Below, piece after piece: positions 34,638 to 42,904 of a DNA stretch of 45,320 nucleotides. Under the pieces are notes generated by a model. It saw nothing but the letters and a program-made list of their open reading frames with translations, was not told where the DNA came from and ran no database searches. The stretch's first letter is position 1; every line of letters begins with the position of its first letter. This DNA is from Chloroflexaceae bacterium (GTDB taxonomy: Bacteria > Chloroflexota > Chloroflexia > Chloroflexales > Chloroflexaceae). The position numbers and the translations under genes are program-made. Location: assembly GCA_012031225.1 (NCBI GenBank), contig JAAUTZ010000018.1:1369-46688 (forward strand). Reading direction: 5' to 3'.

Positions 34638-34682
34638 GAATACACATCGGCAACGGCATTATGATCAGGATTGGAATGGCTG

Positions 34683-37163
34683 ATGAGAACCTCATCCAAG
34701 CTCGCACTCACACCCGTCATAGGCGACGAGCGTAAACATCAAGTCGCAGTCGGACAGCAGATCCGCTTGATCGTTGCTGCGTTCCTGCTTGCCGTGCTGA
34801 TCGTGATCGGCATACAGGGCCTCCTTTGGCTCCAGAGCGGGGCGTGGCAGTTGGCTGTGGTGCTAGGGGCCCACCTTCTCCTGCTGGGCACCGGCTTGGT
34901 CACGCTGTATCAGGTGCAGCGTGGCGCAACGCAGATAGGCGGACGCTGGCTGCTGGGCGCAACCATTGCGGTGATCTTCACGACGGCCACGCTGATCCGC
35001 GATATGGGCTGGCTACTGGGGAGTGCCTTGATCCTCGCGTTGGTCATCATCACCCCGCTCCTGCTCCCGACGGAAACCCGCGTGCGGCTAGTCATCTTCA
35101 GCATGGGGATTGCGCTAGGAGCCGCTGCGCTGGACCTCATCGTGCCCGCTACGCTAGCTCGCGCAGACCCGACCGGGCTGCTCCACGTCGCCCTAACGCT
35201 GGTGCTAGGGCTGCTGCTCGTGGCGTATCTCGGCATCGTGTTCTACTATCGCGCAATGTATAGCTTTGCCAACAAACTCGCCGTCGTCGTCTTGGGCTTG
35301 GTGCTGCTGCCCCTCGTGTTGCTGCTGTTCTGGATCAGCACCAATGTACCGGAGCTGTTCTTCTTGGCCCACACCACGCCGATTGCACCGGAACAACTAC
35401 TGGTGCAGCGCAGCACGCGCCTGTTTCTGGTAATGATTGTGGCATTTGTCGCCACAGGCGCAATCTTGATTGGACAGTGGCTCACCATCCCCATCGTTGG
35501 ACTCACGGCCAGCATCGCACGCTTTACTGATGGTGATATGCAGGCCCGCGCAACCATTCACTCCCACGATGAGACGGGTCAGCTGGCAACCAGCTTCAAT
35601 ACGCTTGCGGCCCAACTTGCGGCAGTGGTCGTACATCTCGAAGAACGCACCCACGCGCTGGAAGCGGAAGTGGCCGAACGGACCCGCGCTGAAGCCAACC
35701 TGAAGCAACTCAGGGCGAACCTTGAAGCCGAGGTGCAAACCCAAACCGCCGACCTGCGCCGCAAGAATGGCTATCTGGGTGCCCTCCATGCTACATCGCT
35801 GGCTTTGATGAACCGCCACGAGTTGGGCGATGTCCTGAAAACCATCATCAATCGGGCGGTGCAGCTGACCGGCACGGATCACGGCTTCGTCTACATGGTC
35901 AAGCCGGAGGGCGATGCTCTCGAATTGCAGGCTGGGGTGGGCTTATTCACCAATACCATGCTCAAAGCACTGCCGATCAGTAAAGGTGAAGACCTGCCCG
36001 GCACAGTCTGGGCAACCGGGCGGCAGCTGCTGGTTGCCGATTATGATCGTTGGAGTGGGCGGCGCAACACGATTGATCGGCGCAAGCTGAGTACCGTGAT
36101 CGGTGTGCCGCTCTTTTCGGGCGGCGAGATCCTCGGCGTGATGGGCACCGCCCTCGATTACAACAATCGGCGCACATTTGCACCAGATGAACTCAACTTC
36201 CTCAACCGCTTCGCCCAACTCGCTTCGATTGCCCTCGACAACGCCAAGCTCTACACGAGTGCCCAGCAAGAACTGCAAGAACGCAAACGCACCGAACTAG
36301 AGTTGCAACGCGCCAAAGAGCTAGCCGAACACGCTAGCCATGCCAAGAGTCAGTTCCTTGCCAATATGAGCCACGAACTGCGGACTCCCTTGAATGCCAT
36401 TATTGGCTACAGTGATATGTTGCTGGAAGATATGCACGATATGAGTACCACCGAGATGGCGGCTGATCTGGATAAGATCCGCACGGCGGGCAACCATCTG
36501 TTGGCGTTGATCAATAACGTGCTGGATATTTCGCGCATCGAAGCCGGGAAGCTCGAACTAGATTTGGTGCTGTTTGATCTTGATCAGCTTGTCCACGAAC
36601 TCGTGACGACGATCCAACCGATTGTGCAGCGCAATCAGAATACGTTGATCGTGACGAAGCCCGACCATTTGGGGCTGATCTATACCGATCAGACGCGCCT
36701 GCGCCAAATCCTGATCAACCTGCTCAGTAATGCGGCCAAGTTCACCAAAGCGGGTGAGGTTGCGCTCGTCATCAGCCGCCAAGTGGTGCTGAAGCCCGCG
36801 ACGGGAGCCTTGCTGTTAAGCTCGGCTGAGCCGCCAGAACAGCCGCGTGAAGCCCGCATGAAGGAGCAGCACTGGCTGATCTTTGAGGTACGCGATACGG
36901 GCATTGGCATGTCCCGCGAGCAGATGTATCGTCTGTTTGAGCCATTCACCCAAGCTGACACCTCGACCACACGCGAATATGGTGGCTCTGGGCTGGGCTT
37001 GGTGATTAGCCGCAAGTTCTCGCGCATGATGGGCGGTGATATTACGATGGATAGTGTGCAGGGGCAAGGCTCGGTCTTTATGCTATTTCTGCCAGATGAT
37101 CGCGCTAATGAAGAAGCTGCCGCCGAGCAGCCGGCCGAGCCACTCCTTGTCCGCAGTGAATAA
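34683..37163 (+). CDS. Membrane hybrid-free sensor histidine kinase (HAMP-GAF)
   Basis: The 826-residue kinase has about eight N-terminal helices (to residue 270), a HAMP domain (265-320), a coiled coil, a GAF domain (about 375-525) and HisKA with the phospho-site His564 in [16 protein letters not shown], then HATPase with [15 protein letters not shown] and GGSGLGLVI. There is no receiver of its own. The start ATG at 34683 is preferred; TTG at 34671 is possible. The next kinase begins 3 bases after its stop, and the two kinase cores are very similar (NAIIGYS-x-MLLED), which suggests tandem duplication. Probably feeds the receivers downstream. The signal is unknown. Confidence 0.92.
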
Positions 37164-37166
37164 TGT

Positions 37167-39416
37167 ATGCCCAACGAAACTACTGCCCCAACTCGTACAC
37201 CTAGCCCGACCGCATCTGCGCCGAGCGCGTTGCATCCGAATGGTGAACACATTTTTCGGGAGCTGTTTGACCATTCGCCAGATGCAATTTTTGTGGAGGA
37301 TATGCAGGGCTATGTCTTGGATGTCAATCCGGCGGCATGTGTGCTGCATGATATGTCCCGCACCGAGCTGATCGGCAAGCACGTCACCGAGCTTGTGCCC
37401 CACGATCAAGCGGCAATGGTACGCGAGAGCTTTCCGCGCATTGCCCGCGGCGAGCTAGAACGGCTGGAGGGCTATAGCTACACCCGCAGTGGGCAGGCTA
37501 TTCCGGTCGAGATTAAGGTCAATCGGATCACCTATCAAGGGCAACCGGCGGTGCTGCTGCATGTCCGCGATACGACGACGTGGCGGGCCGCGCAGGAAGC
37601 CCTGCTGCGCAGCGAAGCAACCAACCGCGCCCTGCTGAATGCGATCCCTGACCTGATGCTGCAAATCCAGCGCGATGGCAGCTATCGCAATATCAAACAG
37701 GTCAATAGTGCCCACCAGATTTCAACGGTGGAACAGACGTTGGGCGAGGTGTACCCGTTCTTCCTCAATGAAGTCATCCAACGCGCACAGCTGCATGTGC
37801 AGCGGGCATTGCAGAGTGGCCAGCCGCAGATGTTCGAGTATGTGTTCCCATTCCATCTGGGGGAGCAGCTGGTGGCGGCGCGGGTGATCCAGTATGAGCA
37901 GCTCCAGCAGGCATTGCAAGAGCAACGCCGCCGCCAAGCAAAAGGACAGGACCTGCTGCTGGGCGATCTGCTGCTCAATTGGGGCTGGATTACGCCGGTG
38001 CAACTGGATCGTGCGCTGGAGCAGCAACGGCTGGGGGGACAGTCGCGGGATTATGAGATGCGCCTCGCCGTCAGTGGCGTGGATGAAGTTCTGCTGATGG
38101 TGCGCGATGTCACCTCGCAGAAGCTGGCTGAGAAAGCCCGCCTGACCCAAGCCGAGCGCGTGCGGGCATTATACGAGGTCTCGGCTCGCTCTGGGCTAGC
38201 GTTTGATGAACAGGTAGACCAACTGCTGCACACTGGCTGTCGCCTGCTCCACATGGACATCGGCGTGGTTGTCACCTCCGAACTACGCCTCCAGCCGTAT
38301 GCCTTGCACCACATCAGCCATAGCCGCAATACCGATGTGCTCTTGGAGGAACTGCTGGCTCAGCCGGAGCTGTTGGCGAGTGCGGTGGCAACCGATACGC
38401 CGATTGCCCGGAGCTACCCATTGCCACCAAGCGAAGCAGGCGACGAGCAATCCAACCACCTACGTGCATTGATTGGCGCACCGTTGTGGGTTGCTGGGCA
38501 ACGTTGGGGGGCAATCTTCTTCCTGAGCCAAGCCGCGCAGCCGATTCTGTTTCAAGAGACCGATCTGGATCTGGTGCAGCTGATGGGCCGCCTGATCAGT
38601 GTGGCTCTGGAACGCAAGGAGGAAGCGACTGAACTGTATCGCGCTAAAGAGCTGGCTGAGTCGGCGAACCGGGCCAAGAGTGCGTTCTTAGCGAATATGA
38701 CCCATGAACTCCGCACGCCGTTGAATGCGATCATTGGCTACAGTGAGATGCTGCTAGAAGACTTTCAGCACAGCGGCAATCTTGATCCCACCAGTGTCCT
38801 CGCTGATCTTGATCGGATCAAGACGGCCGGTCGCCACTTGTTGGCGTTGATCAATGAGATTCTGGACATCTCGAAGATCGAGGCCGGCCATATGGATCTG
38901 TATCTCGAGCAGTTTACCATCCCTGATCTGATTGCGAATGTGCTGCCCTCAGTGGAGCCATTGATTGCCCGCAACCAGAACCAGTTGACGATCCAGTGCG
39001 AACCAGACTTGCCCGTGATGTATGCCGATGTCACCAAGCTGCGCCAAATCTTGCTCAACCTGCTGAGCAATGCCGCCAAATTCACCACTGGCGGGCAGAT
39101 CCGGGTGCATGTGCGGAGCTTTCGCACGCCGCCGGATCAGACGGTGTGGGTCAGCTTTGCGGTGGCTGATACCGGCATCGGGATTACGCTGGAACAGCAG
39201 GAACATCTGTTCCAGCCATTTATGCAAGGCGATGCCTCAACAACGCGCCGCTTTGGAGGCACTGGGCTAGGCTTAGCGATCAGCTCGCGCTACTGCACGA
39301 TGATGGGCGGCAGCATTGCGGTTGCTAGCACACCGGGGCAGGGAGCCATCTTTACGGTCGTGCTCCCGTTGCAGGTCACGCGTGCTGATGCACAGGCCGA
39401 CCACGCCCTGCTGTGA
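37167..39416 (+). CDS. PAS-PAS(MshEN-like insert)-GAF sensor histidine kinase
   Basis: A cytoplasmic kinase of 749 residues. PAS 1 spans about 28-145 ([19 protein letters not shown]). PAS 2 starts near 155 and is interrupted: after [12 protein letters not shown] an insert of about 60 residues (231-292) carries two tandem motifs, [16 protein letters not shown]...ALQEQ and [16 protein letters not shown]...ALEQQ, before the PAS fold resumes with [21 protein letters not shown]. The two motifs follow the LG..L(V/L)..G.I....L...L..Q pattern of MshEN/GspE-N domains, though the leading Arg is absent. Then a GAF domain (about 335-480) and HisKA with His513 in [15 protein letters not shown], and HATPase with GGTGLGLAI. 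The start is 3 bases after the previous kinase stop. Confidence 0.88.
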
Positions 39417-39536: not shown

Positions 39537-39917
39537 ATGACGACCATTCTGTTAGTAGAAGACAACGAAATGAATCGGGATATGCTTTCGCGGCGGTTGA
39601 TGCGGCGCGGCTTTCAGGTGACAATGGCCACCGATGGGATGCAAGGGATCACCCTTGCCCGCAGCGAGCGGCCCGATCTGATCCTGATGGACATCAGCTT
39701 GCCGGTAGTGGATGGCTGGGAAGCCACCCGCACGCTCAAAGCCGATCCCCATACCCAAGCCATTCCGGTCATTGCGCTGACGGCCCACGCCCTCGCCGGG
39801 GATCGTGAGAAGAGTCTCGCGGCGGGCTGTGATGAGTATGAAACCAAGCCGGTTGATTTTGCCCGGTTGTTGGGCAAGATCGAACGGCTTTTGAATGATC
39901 GGACAGCCCATGCTTGA
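39537..39917 (+). CDS. Single-domain response regulator
   Basis: A 126-residue stand-alone CheY/DivK-like receiver with the acidic pair in LLVEDNEMN, phosphoacceptor Asp52 in LILMDISLP, Thr/Ala in ALTAHAL and Lys104 in ETKPVD. It resembles the receiver of the next gene (both have EDNE/DDNE-x-NRD and SRRLMR), which suggests duplication. It has no output domain, so it may act as a phosphate shuttle between the kinases and the phosphatase gene product. The stop overlaps the next start by 8 bases. Confidence 0.93.
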   Translation: MTTILLVEDNEMNRDMLSRRLMRRGFQVTMATDGMQGITLARSERPDLILMDISLPVVDGWEATRTLKADPHTQAIPVIALTAHALAGDREKSLAAGCDEYETKPVDFARLLGKIERLLNDRTAHA

Positions 39918-41076
39918 ACAGAGCCATGTGCTTGTCGTAGATGACAACGAAGCCAATCGGGATGTCCTCTCGCGGCGGCTAATGCGGCAAGGCATTCGCA
40001 CCACCAGTGCCGAGAATGGGCGCCATGCGCTGGAGCAGGTCCGTAGGGCAGCATTTGACTTGATCCTGCTGGATGTGATGATGCCGGAGATGAACGGCTA
40101 CCAAGTGTTGGAAATCCTCAAAGCTGATCCAGCCTTGCGGCATATTCCGGTGATTATGATCTCGGCCGTGGATGATATTGATAGTGTGGTGCGTTGCATC
40201 GAGTTGGGCGCAGAAGATTACTTGTTCAAGCCGTTTAATCCGGTGCTGCTCAAAGCCCGCGTTGAAGCTAGCCTTGAAAAGAAGTTCCTGCGCGACAAAG
40301 AACGGGCGTATCTGAAAGCCGTCAAGCAGGAGCTAGAGCTAGGGCGGCGCACGCAAGCCGATTTCTTCCCAGTCGAGCTGCCGCAGGTAGCGGGCTGGTG
40401 GTTGGGGGCGTTGTTCCAGCCGGCGCGGGAAGTAGGGGGCGATTTCTATGATGTATTTCGGCTGCCCGATCAACGGCTGGCACTGGTGATGGCGGATGTG
40501 TGCGACAAAGGGGTGCGGGCTGCGCTGTTTATGGTGCTGGTACGCAGCCTGTTGCGGGCATTTGCGGAGCAGGCGGCGAATGCGGGGGATGATCCGCTGC
40601 TCGCCGTGCAGCTGACCAATACCTACATTACGCGCCACCATCACAACCGCTCGCATCTGCATATGTTCGCCACCTTGTTCTGCGGGATCCTCGAACCAGC
40701 AACGGGCCAACTGACGTATATCAATGCCGGGCACGAAGCCCCACTGGTCTTAGGCCCGCACGGGATTGAAGCGATCCTTGATACAACCGGCCCCGCCGTG
40801 GGGTTTATGCCTGATTCACGCTATGGGCAAGCCACGATCACGCTGGGGACCGGCACCACGCTGCTGACCTACACCGACGGCGTGACGGAAGCGCGGAATC
40901 TGGCGGGTGATCTGTTCACCGAAGAGCGGCTACACAATCTGATCAATCAGCCGCACAGCACGGCGAGTGCCCTGCTCGAACAGGTTCACACTGGCGTAAC
41001 CGCATTTGTCGGTCAGCAAACCCCTGCGGATGATATTACGATACTGGCCTTAGCGCGGCTTGGGCCAGCAAGCTAA
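39910..41076 (+). CDS. Response regulator with PP2C/RsbU phosphatase output
   Basis: The 388-residue protein has a receiver (Asp55 in LILLDVMMPE, lysine in LFKPFNP), a short coiled linker (about 125-155) and a C-terminal SpoIIE/RsbU-type PP2C domain. There the metal motifs are PAREVGGDFYD, MADVCDKGVRAALFM, LLTYTDGVTEARN and a closing DDITILAL. In RsbU-type systems such enzymes dephosphorylate STAS anti-anti-sigma proteins. The ATG at 39910 overlaps the previous stop; an ATG five codons earlier is possible. No anti-sigma partner is adjacent. Confidence 0.93.
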   Translation: MLEQSHVLVVDDNEANRDVLSRRLMRQGIRTTSAENGRHALEQVRRAAFDLILLDVMMPEMNGYQVLEILKADPALRHIPVIMISAVDDIDSVVRCIELGAEDYLFKPFNPVLLKARVEASLEKKFLRDKERAYLKAVKQELELGRRTQADFFPVELPQVAGWWLGALFQPAREVGGDFYDVFRLPDQRLALVMADVCDKGVRAALFMVLVRSLLRAFAEQAANAGDDPLLAVQLTNTYITRHHHNRSHLHMFATLFCGILEPATGQLTYINAGHEAPLVLGPHGIEAILDTTGPAVGFMPDSRYGQATITLGTGTTLLTYTDGVTEARNLAGDLFTEERLHNLINQPHSTASALLEQVHTGVTAFVGQQTPADDITILALARLGPAS

Positions 41077-41094
41077 ACGAGGGGAGTGCCAGCC

Positions 41095-41607
41095 GTGATG
41101 GAACAGGATCCGCGCCCACCCGTAGACCCGGCTAGCCCTGAGCCGGACAGCCGCGTGCTAGTCGTCTACCTGCCGCACCCCCGCGATTACCAGCAACTCC
41201 AGCAGCACGGCTGGTATCGGATTCCAGTGCGTTCGGCTCCGCCGCGCCTTGCCGTCAGCTACCTTGCCTTCTACCTCCCAGCCGCATTCGGTGCGTTGCG
41301 CTGGAGCATCCGCGAGTATGCGCCCTTGCAGGGCTGGCAGATTGTCCCGCGCCGCGAGCTACTCCCAGCTGAGCCGGATCACCCGCGTGCGCTCCAGCCC
41401 TACTACCGGCTTGAGGTGGGCCCCTTGCAGGCCTTGCCGCAGCCCTTGCTGGCCGCCAAGCTGCGCCGGATTACCTTCATCGAAACGAGCTTCGCGCAGC
41501 TGGGCCGGGCGCGGGATGTGCGCGAGCTGTGGCAGCCGCCCGAAAACCACACCTACAGCAACACCGAGCTGTGGGCGGCGGGGCTAGCGGGGCGTGCGCT
41601 GCGCTGA
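41095..41607 (+). CDS. Uncharacterised conserved-style protein
   Basis: I do not recognise a named family. The 170-residue soluble protein has a Pro-rich start, a strand VLVVYLPHPRDYQQ, the segment GWYRIPVRSAPP, SYLAFYLPAAFG, RWSIREYAPLQGW, LLPAEPDHPRA and AAKLRRITFIETSFAQL. This block pattern (W-Y-RIPV, AFY..AFG, RRITFI) looks like hypothetical proteins common in Chloroflexota and cyanobacteria, from memory only. It lies 18 bases after the phosphatase gene and shares its strand, so it may belong to the signalling operon. The GTG at 41095 has GGGGA 9 bases upstream; ATG at 41098 is an alternative. Confidence 0.6.
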   Translation: MMEQDPRPPVDPASPEPDSRVLVVYLPHPRDYQQLQQHGWYRIPVRSAPPRLAVSYLAFYLPAAFGALRWSIREYAPLQGWQIVPRRELLPAEPDHPRALQPYYRLEVGPLQALPQPLLAAKLRRITFIETSFAQLGRARDVRELWQPPENHTYSNTELWAAGLAGRALR

Positions 41608-41616
41608 GGCTGCCGC

Positions 41617-42528
41617 TCACCAGAGCAGGGCCACAAGCGGGATCGTGAATGCCGCTAAAGCCGTCTGCACCGTGACAATGGCCGCAATCAGGCGGACATC
41701 GCCGCCGAGTTCTTGGGCTAGCAGGTACGCCGCAGGCGCACCCGGCAACGCTGCAAATAGGATCGTGATCGCACGGGCTTCGTCGGTCACGCCGAGCATC
41801 AGGCACGCGCCCGTGGTGAGCATGGGCAGCACCCCCAATTTAAGGGCACTCACCACCAGCACCGCGCTGCCCGTGCCGCGCACGGCACGCACATCGAGGG
41901 CCGCGCCCACCGTGAGTAAGCCGAGGGGCAGGGCCGCCCGAGCCGCGATTTCAAGCAGTTCGGCGAGCACGGGCGGCAAGCCTACGCCAGTCAGATTGAG
42001 CAGAATCCCGAGCACACACGCCGCTACCGGCGGGGTGCGCATGATCGCCAGCAGGGTTGTCCCCAGCCGGAGCTGCTGCACCCCGACGTAGTGGGTCAAG
42101 ACCACAACACTCAACACATTCACAAGCGGGATGAGGATCATCAGGGCGAGGGCCGCAAGGGCGAGGCCCAAATCGCCATACAAGGCGGCGGCCCCAGCCA
42201 AGCCGACATAGGTATTCATGCGGATGCTGCCCTGAAACAGCGAGGTAAACGCGGGATTGTCCACTGCAAACAGGGGGCGCAGCAGTAGCATGCTGCCTGC
42301 AATCAGGCAGATCGGGATCGCTAGGGCGAGCGTGATTGCGCCGAAGGCAATGCCGGACAGATCGGTGGTGGCAAGGCGTGTGATAATTAACGCCGGAAAG
42401 AAGACGTAGTAGGTGAAGCGGGCCGCAGGTTGCCAGAAGGCGTTATCGGGGAAGCCGTAGCGACGGCATCCGGCTCCCGCAAGGATGGTCAGAAAAATTG
42501 GCAGTAAGGCCAGCATAATTGCGTACAT
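41617..42528 (-). CDS. AEC family transporter (auxin efflux carrier type)
   Basis: This is a 303-residue membrane protein with ten hydrophobic helices in two five-helix halves. The family N-terminus MLALLPIFLTILAGAGCRRYG, the mid-protein NTYVGLAGA and the C-terminal half ending ALPGAPAAYLLAQELGGD are typical. Members export or import organic acids such as malate; the substrate here is not known. Its stop is 9 bases from that of the convergent unknown gene. Confidence 0.9.
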   Translation of the reverse strand: MYAIMLALLPIFLTILAGAGCRRYGFPDNAFWQPAARFTYYVFFPALIITRLATTDLSGIAFGAITLALAIPICLIAGSMLLLRPLFAVDNPAFTSLFQGSIRMNTYVGLAGAAALYGDLGLALAALALMILIPLVNVLSVVVLTHYVGVQQLRLGTTLLAIMRTPPVAACVLGILLNLTGVGLPPVLAELLEIAARAALPLGLLTVGAALDVRAVRGTGSAVLVVSALKLGVLPMLTTGACLMLGVTDEARAITILFAALPGAPAAYLLAQELGGDVRLIAAIVTVQTALAAFTIPLVALLW

Positions 42529-42564
42529 GGCGAGTTGCTTTATGTCCAGTGTAGGTCGGGTTGA

Positions 42565-42587
42565 GGCCCAAGCACGATGCTTGGGCC
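42565..42587. promoter_or_regulatory. Perfect 10-bp hairpin in a divergent promoter region
   Basis: GGCCCAAGCA and TGCTTGGGCC surround CGA between the divergent AEC and TPR-like genes. It has no T-run, so an operator or a leader hairpin is more likely than a terminator. Confidence 0.45.
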
Positions 42588-42613
42588 GCGTGTCGCTATT
42601 GTACCGGATTTGG

Positions 42614-42619
42614 TATAAT
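42614..42619 (+). promoter_or_regulatory. Extended -10 promoter box of the small TPR-like gene
   Basis: A perfect TATAAT preceded by TGG (extended -10), 37 bases before the gene start. The -35 region (TGTCGC at 17 bases) is weak. Confidence 0.5.
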
Positions 42620-42655
42620 ACGCATAGGGTCGGTACTGAGGCAAAGGCACACGAG

Positions 42656-42904
42656 ATGGAAGCACAAGTTCAAGAATGGCTCTACGATGGCGTAATGGCA
42701 TTGCTCAAGGGCGACCGTGAACGCGCACAGGGGTTGCTGTTACAGGTGGTGAGCAATGACGAGCAGAATGAGTATGGCTGGCTCTGGTTGAGTGGCGCAG
42801 TTGACTCGGTCGATGATCAGCAGATCGCCCTCGAAAATGTGATCGCGATCAACCCCAACAACCCCTACGCCAAGCAGGGGCTAGCCCTGCTAGCGCGGCA
42901 GTAG
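42656..42904 (+). CDS. Small TPR-like protein
   Basis: An 82-residue helical protein with the pattern of a single TPR-like pair: ALLKGDRERAQGLLLQVV, YGWLWLSGAVDSVDD and ENVIAINPNNPYAKQGLALL. This GDR-x-A...L...NP-NP-x-A motif is frequent as a stand-alone or N-terminal module in Chloroflexota proteins. It is probably cytoplasmic and used for protein contact. The ATG has only a weak GAG upstream (CACGAG), but it directly follows the extended -10 box; an in-frame upstream extension of 57 codons would include the promoter and is rejected. Confidence 0.7.
   Translation: MEAQVQEWLYDGVMALLKGDRERAQGLLLQVVSNDEQNEYGWLWLSGAVDSVDDQQIALENVIAINPNNPYAKQGLALLARQ

Follow-up and report, generated by a model that had tools for sequence, protein, structure and literature searches.

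In the ATPase MshE of Vibrio cholerae, the bases of c-di-GMP are held by two leucine triangles, by backbone contacts of glycine residues and by glutamines, and arginine stacks on the outer face (PMC5013675). In PilF of Thermus thermophilus, the GSPII-B domain binds c-di-GMP by hydrophobic stacking. Lysine or leucine replaces both arginines in this domain, and the affinity is 6 nM, or 2 nM in the K167L variant; the authors widened the first motif position to (R/K/L)LG, giving the extended consensus (R/K/L)LG..(LVI)(LVI)..G....L...L..Q (PMC11731258). Serine at the arginine position abolished binding in a reconstructed GSPII-A domain of PilF (PMC12002112). Histidine kinases directly regulated by c-di-GMP are also known: in CckA of Caulobacter, the main receptor is reported to be a PAS domain, and isolated PAS-B did not bind (PMC4853435), and in RavS of Xanthomonas, Arg656 of the CA region is required (PMC6707612).

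The window, by which we mean the whole analysed stretch of 45,320 nucleotides from a Chloroflexaceae bacterium, encodes a histidine kinase with an insert in its second PAS domain. The reading we hold, with moderate confidence, is that this insert is a minimal MshEN_N unit in the presumed Gβ/Hβ hairpin of PAS2 and most likely an allosteric c-di-GMP input to the kinase. What the analysis shows is the sequence family and predicted fold of the insert, its insertion point, its conservation under purifying selection and the presence in the genome of genes for making and degrading c-di-GMP; binding by this particular copy, the direction of its effect on the kinase and the signalling partners are what we infer.

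The kinase and its divided PAS domain

The kinase and its neighbours are organised as follows, in window coordinates and with kinase residue numbers.

34671–37163 (+): upstream HAMP-GAF-HisKA-HATPase kinase, ending 3 bases ahead of the start of the nested-PAS kinase
37167–39416 (+): sensor histidine kinase, soluble, 749 amino acids, arranged as PAS1, PAS2 with nested MshEN_N unit, GAF, HisKA and HATPase_c
37254–37580 (+): PAS1, residues 30–138, without insert (Pfam PAS_4/PAS/PAS_9)
37614–37850 (+): first part of PAS2, residues 150–228 (PAS_4 profile positions 1–74), closing with the presumed G-beta strand MFEYVFP, assigned by alignment with an insert-free sibling PAS
37851–38045 (+): nested four-helix unit of MshEN_N type, residues 229–293 (NF053729, AlphaFold2 model, Foldseek/VIA, shuffle control)
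37854–37925 (+): motif I, residues 230–253, with His in place of Arg and Arg in place of Gly; Leu/Gly/Gln contacts retained
37926–37955 (+): 10-residue spacer between the motifs
37956–38027 (+): motif II, residues 264–287, with Leu at the Arg position, like PilF L196 and K167L, and GWI like PilF GSPII-B
38046–38123 (+): second part of PAS2, residues 294–319, containing two strands presumed to be H-beta and I-beta as well as the DVT motif that closes the domain (PAS_4 match 1–108 after excision)
38205–38615 (+): GAF domain, residues 347–483 (Pfam)
38673–39374 (+): HisKA (residues 503–574) and HATPase_c (residues 621–736) (Pfam)
39537–39917 (+): single-domain response regulator (Pfam Response_reg)
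39895–41076 (+): REC-SpoIIE (PP2C-type) response regulator (Pfam)

Pfam finds both HisKA and HATPase_c, hence the assignment as a sensor histidine kinase. The REC and REC-PP2C genes are tied to it by adjacency and partly conserved gene order only. Genome G011 encodes an orthologous kinase with the nested unit (59% identity), in a neighbourhood that matches the window: a GAF-HisKA kinase precedes it, and a REC-PP2C gene and a conserved unknown protein follow. The protein encoded at 41086–41607 (+) of the window has no Pfam match, and its place after the REC-PP2C gene is kept in G011 (L034, 2160–2687, minus strand).

With the insert present, the PAS_4 profile matches PAS2 over its positions 1–74 with 18.1 bits, under the cut-off of 23.1. 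Upon excision of the insert, the match extends over positions 1–108 of 110 and rises to 23.6 bits, above the cut-off. In the same operation, the G015 kinase goes from 23.3 bits to 29.6, and the G011 kinase, which has no match with its insert in place, obtains 17.4 bits, below the cut-off; the match thus improves in all three members tested, and two of the three are above the cut-off. The restored, continuous match places the insert in the presumed Gβ/Hβ hairpin. A sibling PAS domain without insert, located directly ahead of the nested PAS on the G430 contig (L071), reads ...EIFEYSLAMPRGLREYEARI... and contains a short hairpin, where the nested PAS domains read FEYVFP, then the insert, then RDYEMRL. 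A second insert-free sibling, from G786 (L107), reads ...IFEYQLPLPRDTRDFEVWL..., also with a short hairpin. In the alignment, the insertion takes the place of the turn between the presumed G and H strands. The G786 kinase, from the class of G366, had itself been considered as a candidate for a PAS insert; its PAS, from the same subfamily, proved to be an ordinary one that lacks an insert. An earlier note on this DNA, made from the sequence alone, had placed the element at 37857–38045 in the second kinase, splitting PAS 2 with flanks that rejoin; the position is right to within two codons, and the excised profile match bears out the rejoining.

Identity and predicted fold of the insert

The insert consists of two copies of a 24-residue motif separated by a 10-residue spacer. 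The isolated segment matches the NCBIfam model NF053729 (c-di-GMP_motif, MshE-related) with 55.8 bits and an E-value of 2.8e-15, over a curated cut-off of 38, and with 48.6 bits when left in context. Models for NfrB-type glycosyltransferases match the isolated segment more weakly, and a resemblance to PATAN/DUF4388 and DEP domains was discarded, with E-values of merely 0.07–0.09, far below the MshEN match. Against a profile of 15 further MshEN units from Chloroflexota, all of them non-nested, the window segment scores 72.9 bits. A second profile, made from only the six distinct nested inserts, picks out PilF, PilB and MshE among the solved structures, the five best matches having E-values from 1.4e-14 to 2.5e-8, the latter for MshE (5htl); no confident match outside these three proteins was obtained in this search. 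The Pfam MshEN model PF05157, of 90 positions, does not match the kinase or the segment above its cut-off, which limits the claim to the N-terminal c-di-GMP-binding unit (MshEN_N) rather than the whole Pfam domain.

AlphaFold2 folds the isolated 66 residues into four helices (residues 2–9, 15–30, 37–43 and 49–62) with a mean pLDDT of 84.5, in a model based on two close sequences, the remaining four models being at 65–70. In a Foldseek search with this model, the first eight matches are all c-di-GMP-bound MshE or GSPII domains of PilF, with query TM-scores of 0.65–0.74, root mean square differences of 1.4–2.4 Å and probabilities of 0.87–1.00; the E-values, 0.07–0.7, are weak, as the query is short and helical. 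VIA-align also ranks PilF GSPII-B and MshE on top, with Z-scores of 9.9–9.4, which are under the caution level for helical bundles and on their own not decisive. The insert is thus predicted to be a compact four-helix unit of the MshEN_N type and not a coiled coil. A composite model of PAS and insert, from two sequences, is of low confidence (pLDDT 52.5) and has no meaningful fold match; strands flank the helices on both sides, but the model does not resolve the PAS domain closing around the insert.

It is extremely improbable that the segment is an extended coiled coil or glutamine-rich helical linker with an accidental likeness to the motif. Gln, Leu and Arg abound in it, and PAS domains often have helical linkers nearby; both points would suit such a linker. 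However, none of 20,000 shuffles that preserve the composition exceeds 15.3 bits with the same Chloroflexota profile, compared to 72.9 for the real segment, four separate helices are predicted, and the confident matches among solved structures are solely to GSPII/MshEN domains. The shuffle control and the four-helix model led us to reject the artefact. The tandem MshEN-like motifs of the earlier note are present in two copies; of the MshEN/GspE-N layout it proposed, the MshEN_N half stands, the full domain does not. Neither outcome that the note named as contrary to its claim was obtained, as an MshE-family model matches significantly and the prediction is a four-helix bundle. Its observation is confirmed and its interpretation partly supported.

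Ligand contacts, distribution and proposed mechanism

All of the MshE ligand contacts made by leucine, glycine and glutamine are retained in the window (six of six, two of two and two of two, respectively). Motif II deviates from the extended consensus at position 11 alone, with a tryptophan that is also found in PilF GSPII-B. As leucine at the arginine position gives nanomolar binding (PMC11731258), motif II fits that consensus. The earlier note had observed that the arginines opening the motifs are missing and concluded that binding may be lost or altered; the absence is real (His and Leu), but in view of PilF it does not in itself foretell a loss of binding, and the concern is justified in part. 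The fit of motif I is doubtful, with two deviations: histidine at position 1, for Arg/Lys/Leu, and arginine at position 10, for glycine. To our knowledge, a histidine at the motif arginine position has never been subjected to a binding test, and we know of no measured c-di-GMP binder with a 10-residue spacer. Lack of the second half of the domain should be no obstacle, since in MshE the four-helix half suffices: MshEN_N alone binds c-di-GMP with a KD of 0.35 µM (PMC5013675).

Of the class, 158 genomes were searched; seven of them, belonging to six genera, have the nested unit at an identical insertion point, in kinases of at least two different builds. Apart from the window's genome and G011, it is present in the sister genome G001 (contig CALCJV010000007.1 of an uncultured Chloroflexales metagenome-assembled genome), in G015, G025 and G009, where the kinase is built differently, and in G430, from another family of the order (f4), where the context is a third one. 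The spacer measures 10 residues in all six distinct nested inserts. In the class of G366 (396 genomes, E 1e-8), there is no nested case among the matches listed, and a plasmid search found nothing. The nested PAS is, as these recurrences at one point indicate, a heritable architecture rather than a one-off. Between window and sister, dN/dS is 0.133 for the insert and 0.134 for the whole protein; the insert thus evolves no differently from the remainder of the protein and is under purifying selection. In G011, arginine is conserved in both motifs of the nested unit, and in G015, G025 and G009 in motif I, suggesting that the loss in motif I is probably recent in the window's genus.

These data also bear on a degenerate MshEN_N unit that would have lost nucleotide binding in the window's genus and would now be a bundle with a structural role on the PAS domain or a docking site there for proteins, comparable to XpsE or PilF GSPII-A. 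We judge this unlikely, albeit well above the coiled coil. It would account for the His-for-Arg and Arg-for-Gly exchanges that window and sister share in motif I and for the more degenerate G430 copy, which reaches 28.4 bits with NF053729, under the cut-off; MshEN domains with lost binding are documented (PMC12002112, PMC5013675). However, none of the XpsE losses (G11V, L29R, G40L, L54H, L58C and Q61V) is present in the window, the ten Leu/Gly/Gln contacts are all retained in a constrained insert, the leucine of motif II corresponds to the high-affinity PilF variant, and motif I of G015 and G025 follows the extended consensus throughout.

In the window's genome (97% complete), there are 18 matches to GGDEF, 17 of them above the cut-off, and seven to EAL. 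Profile searches for the receptor families PilZ, PF05157 and NF053729 gave no PilZ and no PF05157 match, and the sole NF053729 match is the nested-PAS kinase. Searches for c-di-GMP riboswitches were uninformative, as no control genome gave a match. In a genome with these GGDEF and EAL matches and with neither PilZ nor Pfam-MshEN matches, a role of the nested unit as c-di-GMP receptor is plausible. Very improbably, the unit is MshEN-like but serves another ligand, such as cGAMP or a different dinucleotide: the arginine positions are altered and MshEN binds cGAMP weakly (3.3e-4 M; PMC5013675), but the backbone glycine contacts that give guanine specificity are retained and the genome is rich in GGDEF genes.

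Assuming that the nested unit is a c-di-GMP receptor, a mechanism may be proposed. The two motifs would together clamp one c-di-GMP molecule. Motif I of MshE packs with its start on the end of motif II (Leu10 with Leu54 and Leu58; PMC5013675), so the two ends of the unit are close together, which suits insertion into a hairpin. The first helix of the insert begins about two residues past the presumed G strand, and the last helix stops just ahead of the H strand. Ordering of the bundle, including unwinding of the first turn such as occurs locally in the first helix of PilF upon binding (PMC11731258), would change the hairpin and thereby the PAS sheet, because the helices of the insert abut both strands. 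The PAS domain would relay this change through its closing DVT and linker helix to GAF and HisKA, and the balance of kinase and phosphatase activities would shift in one direction or the other. The adjacent REC and REC-PP2C proteins are the probable outputs. Counting against the receptor role are the two deviations in motif I, the loss of binding with serine in PilF GSPII-A (PMC12002112), the spacer of 10 rather than 5 residues, the unmatched PF05157 and the poor composite model. As further kinases of this group have the insertion at an identical site, c-di-GMP may feed directly into two-component signalling there. More tentatively, and with less confidence than in the allosteric input itself, a PAS domain with nested MshEN_N could be an exchanged module of the Chloroflexales that makes the PAS c-di-GMP-responsive, in genomes with many GGDEF genes and with no detectable PilZ or Pfam-MshEN receptor of the pilus-motor type, and with the kinase as a main c-di-GMP effector of its host.

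MshEN units are found in other settings in the phylum. Small TPR-like proteins with two successive units (L070, L072, L038–L062) are present in many of the Chloroflexales genomes searched; no such protein is detectable in the window's genome. At 42485–42904 (+), the window has a small TPR-like open reading frame that is similar to the TPR-MshEN proteins of relatives in their N-terminal part and has no MshEN unit behind it. One protein (L073) combines an FHA domain with a single following MshEN unit, and in L056 and L064 a receiver domain is followed by a C-terminal unit (REC-MshEN). Histidine kinases of about 340–345 amino acids with an N-terminal MshEN and no further sensor domain (L040, L063) recur in family f13, and are a candidate for another direct link from c-di-GMP to a kinase. 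Attachment to a kinase is therefore not unique to the window; nesting in a PAS domain is the unusual part.

Comparison with described systems

No prior description of MshEN nested in a PAS domain was found in the literature searched, and absence there is not proof. What is new is the nested position; the ligand-binding unit itself is known. If the proposed role is correct, there would be a direct tie between c-di-GMP and a two-component/PP2C pathway, in a lineage with few recognised receptors, and the kinase would be a natural case of a second-messenger domain grafted into a PAS hairpin, at a site usable in engineered sensors. The range of MshEN_N would be extended to that of a nested, exchangeable input, beyond its place next to a motor ATPase.

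Several fusions, among them REC-MshEN and HD-GYP-MshEN, have been reported, in which MshEN is a portable signalling input, as is proposed for the window; nesting in a PAS domain is not mentioned in the available part of that source (PMC5013675). For CckA and RavS, no MshEN motif has been described, and c-di-GMP acts on these kinases by other means. The f13 kinases (L040 and similar, about 345 amino acids) share with the window an MshEN unit with a 10-residue spacer on a HisKA/HATPase kinase, but theirs precedes the kinase via a helix, whereas that of the window is nested in a PAS domain.

With MshEN_N of Vibrio cholerae MshE (5htl; PMC5013675), the insert shares the two 24-residue motifs, the four helices and the ten Leu/Gly/Gln contacts, with a TM-score of 0.74. 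In MshE, the unit is N-terminal to the ATPase and has a spacer of 5 residues and arginines, whereas in the window it is located in a PAS hairpin, has a spacer of 10 residues and His/Leu at the arginine positions, and is not accompanied by MshEN_C. PilF GSPII-B (8pdk, 8pe0; PMC11731258) is like the window in that the opening arginine is absent from both motifs; its motif DLKLGELLLQKGWIS resembles the window motif, and that of the K167L variant, DLLLGELLLQKGWIS, is close to it. The PilF domain is part of a pilus ATPase and both its motifs are otherwise near the consensus, whereas motif I of the window deviates at two sites.
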